Positions 61,940-62,611 of a stretch of DNA of 64,000 bases are shown here, in pieces. Both the position numbers and the translations under genes were made by a program. The notes under the pieces were generated by a model. That model saw nothing but the letters and a program-made list of their open reading frames with translations, searched no databases and was not told where the DNA came from. Position 1 is the stretch's first letter, and each line of letters starts with the position of its first letter. The stretch is from Thalassovita aquimarina (GTDB lineage Bacteria > Pseudomonadota > Alphaproteobacteria > Rhodobacterales > Rhodobacteraceae): contig NZ_JADMKU010000020.1 in assembly GCF_018219815.1 (NCBI RefSeq), forward strand, positions 1 to 64,000, given 5' to 3'.

Positions 61940-61946
61940 TTTTGTT

Positions 61947-61975
61947 TTGACTTTGCGAAAATCTGTGGCACGATT
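61947..61975 (+). promoter_or_regulatory. Candidate sigma-70 promoter of the structured leader RNA
   Basis: TTGACT at 61947-61952 lies 8 bases after the yhhQ stop and is followed after 17 bases by ACGATT (61970-61975), a weak -10. A start near 61982 would place the extended Shine-Dalgarno about ten bases into the transcript. Confidence 0.5.
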
Positions 61976-62008
61976 CTCCTATCGAAAACTTAGAAAGGAG
62001 GTGCTCTT

Positions 62009-62065
62009 GTGTCTAATGGGATAGCGGAGAGAGGTGTCGGAACAGTTCGGAAGGCAAGCGTCTGA
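62009..62065 (+). CDS. Candidate 18-codon leader peptide upstream of arfB
   Basis: GTG at 62009 lies seven bases after AGGAGG, part of AAAGGAGGTG, a ten-base perfect complement of the 16S tail. The frame encodes MSNGIAERGVGTVRKASV (GTG read as Met) and stops with TGA at 62063-62065. Start spacing and Shine-Dalgarno are optimal, better than those of most genes here. The alternative is that the G-rich stretch serves only RNA pairing. The peptide has no recognised family. Confidence 0.5.
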   Translation: MSNGIAERGVGTVRKASV

Positions 62066-62131
62066 GGCAACCCTTGGTTGTAAATTTTCCGAATTGGTGA
62101 GCGCCTAACCGGCTCCACCTCCTTTTCTCTC

Positions 62132-62168
62132 AAGGGTCGCTCCGAGCAGGGCGGCCCTTACTCTTTTT
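62132..62168 (+). terminator. Rho-independent terminator between the leader RNA and arfB
   Basis: AAGGGTCGCTC (62132-62142) pairs with GGGCGGCCCTT (62149-62159), including G-U pairs, around CGAGCA. ACTCTTTTT follows. It ends 24 bases before the arfB ATG, so arfB needs read-through or a promoter inside the element. Confidence 0.75.
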
Positions 62169-62191
62169 CCCCGGCGCGTTAGAGTACCGAC

Positions 62192-62611
62192 ATGCTCAGG
62201 ATCAACGACACCATCACCATCGCCGACTGGGAACTGACCGAACAGTTCGTCCGCGCTTCGGGCCCCGGCGGCCAGAACGTGAACAAGGTCAGCACCGCGG
62301 TCGAACTGCGTTTCGAAGCCGAACGCAGTCCGTCCCTGCCCGGCCCCGTGAAGGCGCGGCTGAAACGGCTGGCCGGGCGGCGCTGGACCAAGGAGGGCGC
62401 GCTGGTGATCCAATGCGACGAAACCCGCAGCCAGGCGCGCAACCGCGATATTGCCCGGCAGCGCCTGGTCGACCTGATCCTGAAAGCGCTGGAACGGCCC
62501 AAGCGCCGCATCCCCACCAAGCCCACCAAGGGCAGCCAGCGCCGCCGCATAGAGGCCAAGAAACAGCGCGGCGAGGTCAAGGCCCTGCGTGGCCGGATCA
62601 CGGACGACTAG
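62192..62611 (+). CDS. arfB: Alternative ribosome-rescue aminoacyl-tRNA hydrolase ArfB
   Basis: This 139-residue protein has the GGQ hydrolase motif in RASGPGGQNVNKVSTAVELRF (about residues 23-43) and a basic C-terminal tail (KPTKGSQRRRIEAKKQRGEVK) that enters the empty mRNA channel of stalled ribosomes. It releases peptide from non-stop complexes and backs up tmRNA. No good Shine-Dalgarno precedes the ATG (GAGTACCGAC), and a terminator lies just upstream, so expression may be conditional on the leader element. Confidence 0.92.
   Translation: MLRINDTITIADWELTEQFVRASGPGGQNVNKVSTAVELRFEAERSPSLPGPVKARLKRLAGRRWTKEGALVIQCDETRSQARNRDIARQRLVDLILKALERPKRRIPTKPTKGSQRRRIEAKKQRGEVKALRGRITDD

Follow-up and report, generated by a model that had tools for sequence, protein, structure and literature searches.

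In alphaproteobacteria, Hahn and colleagues are said to have described in 2017 a small mRNA of Bradyrhizobium, rreB, with a 17-nt Shine-Dalgarno (SD) sequence and a 14-residue ORF. This RNA reportedly co-sediments with the 30S subunit and is weakly translated, and rreR is reportedly its 18-residue counterpart in the Rhodobacter/Roseobacter lineage. We analysed a 64,000-nt stretch of Thalassovita aquimarina DNA (the window), in which an element at 61947-62168 sits between the gene of a queuosine-precursor transporter (TIGR00697, 96 bits) and arfB, whose identity at 62192..62611 is confirmed by an NF006718 score of 190 bits, where the cut-off is 100. The element probably belongs to a kind already described in alphaproteobacteria, the small mRNA, and we take it to be an ortholog of rreR, an assignment based on sequence and on position (yhhQ lies upstream in 108/119 homologs). 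From sequence comparison we propose, at a probability of roughly 60%, that this is a small mRNA gene in its own right, about 185 nt long and the genus's ortholog of rreR; its SD would be locked within its own RNA and opened by the 30S subunit, and translation would be selected more than the peptide.

Parts and distribution of the element

The features of the locus are collected in Table 1. An earlier note on this DNA had described a TTGACT box, a GTG-started 18-codon ORF, an anti-SD copy, a terminator and arfB, all of which are present; it had also put the SD seven bases ahead of the GTG, and the SD is there, with a spacer of 5 nt instead. Across the 4.33 Mb assembly the motif AAAGGAGGTG has three occurrences, namely in the SD, as the complement at 62116-62125, and once more in a reading frame that stays open over 400 codons or more, compared with 14 occurrences of the reversed pattern used as a control in the same assembly. 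The pair formed by the SD and its complement exceeds chance, and the element is also conserved in relatives. The fold of the whole region 61940-62200 is unexceptional (z -1.45, 13/200 shuffles equally good).

Table 1. Features of the T. aquimarina element and its downstream neighbour, in window coordinates
Feature	Position	Strand	Remarks
Own promoter (predicted)	61947..61974	+	-35 TTGACT 61947-61952, TG 61966-61967, -10 CACGAT 61969-61974
Transcription start (predicted)	~61981	+	
Shine-Dalgarno (SD) AGAAAGGAGGTG	61992..62003	+	12 nt complementary to the 16S 3' tail of a congener
AAAGGAGGTG, within the SD	61994-62003	+	
ORF, GTG start, 18 codons, TGA stop	62009..62065	+	stop at codon 19 in 115/119 homologs
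GAGAGAGGTG, inside the ORF	62027-62036	+	
CACCTCCTTTTCT, internal 16S anti-SD copy, able to pair with the SD	62116..62128	+	32/45 inferred changes lead to an SD-pairing base
Intrinsic terminator	62132..62168	+	11-bp stem 62132-62159, T run 62164-62168
TTAGAG, candidate -10 for a leaderless arfB mRNA	62179..62184	+	-13 to -8 of arfB; departs from TANNNT
arfB, neighbour outside the element	62192..62611	+	ATG at 62192, 23 nt past the T run

A TTG[AC][CT] box lies upstream in 99/119 homologs, in 92 of them 46-60 nt before the SD, and in those 92 the T, G, A and T of TG-N-CANNNT are each kept at about 98%. A generic sigma-70 scan of the locus found no promoter, so the predicted promoter is argued from this conservation. 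The two arms of the terminator match within genomes with a z of -20, which served as the positive control for our pairing tests. Conserved promoter and terminator together point to an independent transcript of about 185 nt, and by its conserved predicted promoter, GTG-started 18-codon ORF, rod-like fold and terminator the element is, as judged from the alignment, an independent small RNA gene.

The element is conserved in related genomes: a DNA search found it in 41/101 genomes, T. aquimarina counted, and the Rfam CC2171 model has matches at E 0.001 or better in at least 237/292 genomes of the order. In this stricter search T. aquimarina itself lies outside these 237, the matches are mostly one per listed genome (two each in G116, G118, G138 and G192), and among 14 control genomes Caulobacter vibrioides alone matches. 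An RNA with a near-invariant ribosome-binding site is hence present in at least that share of one bacterial order. A 21-base pattern of SD and start occurs in at least 120 stretches of a named collection, and among the 80 matches listed the titles are alphaproteobacterial or unresolved proteobacterial except for one Gemmatimonadota MAG. The SD-start pattern was found in 25/299 genomes of a phylum sample, all 25 within the 86 of this class and 0/213 outside it, and in 20/289 genomes of a class sample, with one copy in each matching genome of both. Since the exact pattern misses T. aquimarina's own element, these pattern counts are lower bounds. Our own model, R1, matched 41/289 genomes at class level (T. 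aquimarina included) at E 0.001 or better; among 30 R1 loci examined, 11 lacked the SD-start motif by the first pattern, and 2 of these 11 later proved genuine. Nine model matches were missed by the SD pattern, eight starting GTGCATCAT and one TTG, and all nine likewise end their frame at codon 19.

The homolog set used throughout was obtained from 174 SD-motif loci, of which 123 passed a filter on the start (GTG), on codon 2 (Ser) and on residues 11-12, with the stop not used; removal of 4 duplicates left 119, in which Ser 2 is constant by construction. The main counts draw on 80 of the at least 120 pattern stretches, and the other 40, examined separately, gave 14 further homologs of this type.

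Predicted pairing of the SD with 16S rRNA and with the internal copy

The complement of the 16S 3' tail at the SD runs for 12 contiguous nt in T. aquimarina, where it is interrupted after GGTG; it is exact over 16-18 nt in 68/119 homologs, and a 17-nt complement, GAAAGGAGGTGATCCAG, is found in 52/119. The tail, as its complement CTTAGAAAGGAGGTGATCCAG, was taken from a congener (G001) and applied to all homologs; its pattern was seen in 3 of the 9 genomes searched (G001, G053 and G317), with no match in the T. aquimarina assembly or in 5 others of the nine, where it may be masked, unassembled or different. Counting 3 nt past the usual mature end of 16S rRNA, the region 61989-62003 matches 15 nt of the congener's complement, a match absent from other members of the genus, L003 and L006 among them.

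RNAalifold, applied to 33 and to 119 sequences, predicted an SD:anti-SD pairing, a start-codon hairpin, a rod and the terminator. Mapped by parsimony onto a tree with 108 YhhQ proteins, the 7 core SD columns show no inferred change, while the 7 anti-SD columns show 45, of which 32 led to an SD-pairing base and 13 did not. Without the column that faces A, in which no change can keep the pair, 32/42 changes preserve pairing, against an estimate of about 19 based on the spectrum of changes in 35 unpaired columns, and the anti-SD strand changes 3.6 times less often than unpaired columns. The earlier note had asked whether this stem covaries: changes on the anti-SD strand mostly keep the pairing, and the SD side never changes, so covariation in the classical sense is not visible. 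Matched SD/anti-SD duplexes also beat permuted ones (z -4.5, relatedness not removed). For the internal GAGGTG stem, which underlay the suggestion of two mutually exclusive folds, matched pairs likewise beat permuted ones (z -2.9, relatedness not removed), but two of its pairs are broken in 18/119 and 32/119 homologs, and that suggestion comes out as a weak one.

The predicted pairing probability of the SD is 0.88 compared with 0.65 in shuffles for a random 40 of the 119 homologs, 0.87 compared with 0.75 in nine sequences with 14-codon ORFs, and 0.79 compared with 0.70 in four unclassed sequences. In contrast, SD pairing falls below that of the shuffles in 31 MSHC-type (0.56 vs 0.69) and 21 MSSE-type sequences (0.60 vs 0.67), which means that the group as a whole does not share the lock. 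In all 9 genus members the anti-SD copy reads CACCTCCTT, which extends the cis match. Their predicted 16S duplex averages -26.9 kcal/mol, compared with -34.2 in the other 110 homologs, whereas their predicted SD:anti-SD duplex averages -15.6 compared with -12.6 kcal/mol; T. aquimarina has the second weakest 16S duplex and the third strongest SD:anti-SD duplex predicted among the 119.

Pairing with other mRNAs could just as well be what keeps CACCTCC conserved, in which case the element would act in trans, as an antisense to their SDs. The strand is conserved and its changes are mostly compatible with GGAGGTG pairing, as expected for cis and trans action alike; against the trans reading, the SD is predicted to be paired in this type (0.88 in the sample of 40), and in the genus the copy extends the cis match and the predicted SD:anti-SD duplex is stronger than in the other homologs. 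We therefore regard a trans-acting RNA as very unlikely.

arfB as a neighbour and the 18-codon ORF

The earlier note had held that translation of the leader could decide read-through into arfB, and had asked whether the element always precedes this gene. Such a translation-dependent attenuator, in which leader translation or ribosome supply would set terminator read-through, finds some encouragement in the locus: ORF and terminator precede arfB with a short gap past the terminator, and arfB starts on the same strand no more than 400 nt downstream in 91/119 homologs and in 9 of the 14 further ones. However, the arrangement is not constant. arfB lies at 645-2182 nt in 10/119 homologs and was not found in the downstream DNA, some of it short, of 18/119, so that 28/119 have no arfB within 400 nt; of the further homologs, one has it at 2864 nt and four yielded no arfB. 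Among homologs without arfB nearby 25/25 have a complete SD stem, compared with 83/91 adjacent ones, where the 25 are those with at least 1000 nt of downstream sequence, 3 shorter ones being left out. Terminator hairpin energies are alike (-20.0 kcal/mol non-adjacent, -21.2 adjacent), and the T-run pattern was found in 18/25 non-adjacent and 78/91 adjacent homologs. Two candidate antiterminator pairings gave no within-genome match (z +2.35 and -1.04, with the positive control at -20); a contingency test that set the stop hairpin against the arm of the terminator relied on a column with hardly any variation and gave no information.

Upstream of arfB itself, 17/91 leaders have a TANNNT that begins at -13 or -12 relative to the start codon, where about 1.2 are expected, and SD-like words peak at -9 (8 vs 1.3 expected); for a looser -10 pattern, the stretch from -22 to -10 taken together shows no enrichment (18 vs 14). 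In part of the genomes, then, the position of TANNNT makes it likely that arfB has a promoter placed for a leaderless mRNA, with transcription from the ATG, and T. aquimarina carries a weaker form of this motif there. This positioned -10-like signal speaks against attenuation, as does the presence of yhhQ upstream in most homologs, which means that gene order is conserved on both sides of the element. The proximity of arfB and yhhQ looks like conserved gene order, or a shared neighbourhood, rather than control. Control of arfB by the element is not supported, an attenuator is quite improbable, and the supposed constant association with arfB does not hold.

At 92 loci with other ORF types (66 + 26, flank lengths varying), arfB was not found downstream. 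In three of them (L106, L056 and L163) it lies divergently upstream, at distances of 175, 925 and 1030 nt; all three have MSSEKP-type ORFs, L106 is from a Hyphomonadaceae MAG, and they represent a second, different arfB neighbourhood. A common neighbour for the other ORF types was sought and rejected, as the Pfam families of flanking ORFs share no theme: among 20 of 36 such ORFs from 18 loci, 7 had no family and 13 had families without a theme; one of the 13, from a Hyphomonadaceae MAG, is an RF-1 domain protein (arfB).

The codon-19 stop of the ORF is TGA in 57 homologs, TAG in 46 and TAA in 12, and the remaining four ORFs of the set end after 17, 17, 20 and 22 codons. The same stop is found in 9/9 divergent homologs outside the set, and the 14 further homologs stop after 18 codons in 13 cases and after 17 in one. 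Frames +1 and +2 are interrupted by stops in 52/115 and 60/115, respectively.

One could see in the element a gene for a functional 18-residue micropeptide. A consensus form, MSR.hLERGVGT, is recognisable across many genera, and the synonymous fraction in frame 0 (0.37 vs 0.30 expected) lies above all 200 simulations. In codons 2-12 alone, moreover, the positional entropies are 0.52, 0.55 and 0.63, with the third position slightly the most variable, so together with the frame-0 excess some constraint on the peptide is possible. Yet a similar excess appears in frame +1 (0.31 vs 0.24 expected, also above all 200 simulations), the entropies over codons 2-18 are flat (0.83, 0.86 and 0.81), and residues 13-18 drift among homologs. 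Relatives of other ORF types carry unrelated peptides, of 14 residues in Bradyrhizobium and its kin and mostly 20-34 elsewhere, with 57-59 residues at three MSHG-type loci. A micropeptide gene is on these grounds unlikely. By the alignment, constraint on the peptide is weak while the position of the stop is kept, and selection seems to act on 30S binding and on the act of translating and stopping more than on the peptide; because the conserved N-terminal half overlaps RNA structure, this selection on translation is something we infer.

Among the other types, four loci (L046, L050, L056 and L061) have ATG-started 26-codon ORFs with EQPP or EQPL near the end, and the codons of these residues carry CAGCCTC, another possible SD complement.

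Proposed action and comparison with known systems

Under the proposed small-mRNA reading, the RNA would fold with its SD locked by its own anti-SD copy until a 30S subunit opened the lock, the 16S tail pairing with the SD. The subunit would then initiate at the GTG and translate the 18 codons, opening the whole 5' strand, and clearance would be slow, with an effect on RNA stability. The candidate consequence is buffering of 30S subunits, or an RNA stability set by ribosome supply. The earlier note had offered, beside attenuation, an RNA acting alone on ribosomes or free 30S subunits, and this idea fits the features that sequence comparison supports: the RNA is discrete, it has the SD/anti-SD stem, the retained 18-codon ORF and the terminator, and it could pair with the 16S tail.

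A broader extension, which we put forward as doubtful, would hold for the tiny alphaproteobacterial mRNAs at large: the peptide would be disposable and what is conserved as the product would be the binding of a ribosome, serving to gauge or to store free 30S subunits. In Rhodobacterales these mRNAs would have acquired the anti-SD copy, which would keep the RNA locked until 30S subunits are in excess, so that stability or translation would report ribosome supply, and the strong predicted lock and weak 16S match of the genus would amount to a shifted set point. Across the alignment the SD, its internal complement, the frame, the stop, the promoter and the terminator are kept, whereas the neighbours and a large part of the peptide drift, and this split reduces the question of the element's purpose to a few clean mutants.

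A literature search found no study of this element, which is no claim of its absence from print, and, one citation apart, the accessible passages of PMC7298713, PMC5082802, PMC10117765 and PMC9373788 give no description of it. Attenuators of the trpL type (rnTrpL/peTrpL, as presented in the accessible part of PMC7298713) resemble it in their short ORF, nested stems and terminator. In contrast to them, the element has no consistent downstream gene and no antiterminator signal for the two candidates, and where the trpL type is, in that same part, leaderless, the element is SD-led with a leader of about 12 nt.

No Rfam family matches at gathering score over the 64,000-nt window; 6S RNA, which the earlier note had named as a family to search for, was rejected for want of an Rfam match. 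The Caulobacter sRNA CC2171 (RF01867), which is named in passing in the accessible parts of two papers, in a table of sRNAs predicted for Mesorhizobium (PMC5596092) and in a list of updated Rfam structures (PMC11701678), shares with the element a 5' block, GAAAGGAGGUGAUCCAGUGUC, and the terminator. The two differ in the middle of the RNA and in the peptide, and the T. aquimarina element scores 24.7 bits (E 0.0037) against a gathering cut-off of 75, which 0/292 genomes of the order pass. Read from its GUG, the RF01867 consensus gives VSHCHQ, the ORF start in Brevundimonas and others. The consensus of this 'sRNA' thus holds the start of a conserved small ORF (VSHCHQ...), as at L121 and similar loci. 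Judged by these sequence likenesses, CC2171 is a member of the same group as the element.

With rreB and rreR the element has in common that it is a small mRNA with a long SD matching the 16S tail and a GTG start, and the 14-residue ORFs of Bradyrhizobium and the 17-nt complement in 52/119 homologs agree with what is reported of both. The GTG-started 18-codon ORF that reportedly marks rreR in this lineage is found in T. aquimarina. In contrast, the SD complement of at least 16 nt, the other reported mark, is seen in 68/119 homologs, whereas in T. aquimarina the complement stops at 12 nt, interrupted after GGTG, and is joined to one of the strongest predicted SD:anti-SD duplexes of the set. We thus file the T. 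aquimarina element as a diverged ortholog of rreR and not as a typical member. To the described small mRNAs the present comparison adds that changes in the anti-SD strand mostly keep its pairing with the SD, that the codon-19 stop is kept with weak constraint on the peptide, and that CC2171 joins the same group, which links an Rfam 'sRNA' family with the small mRNAs.
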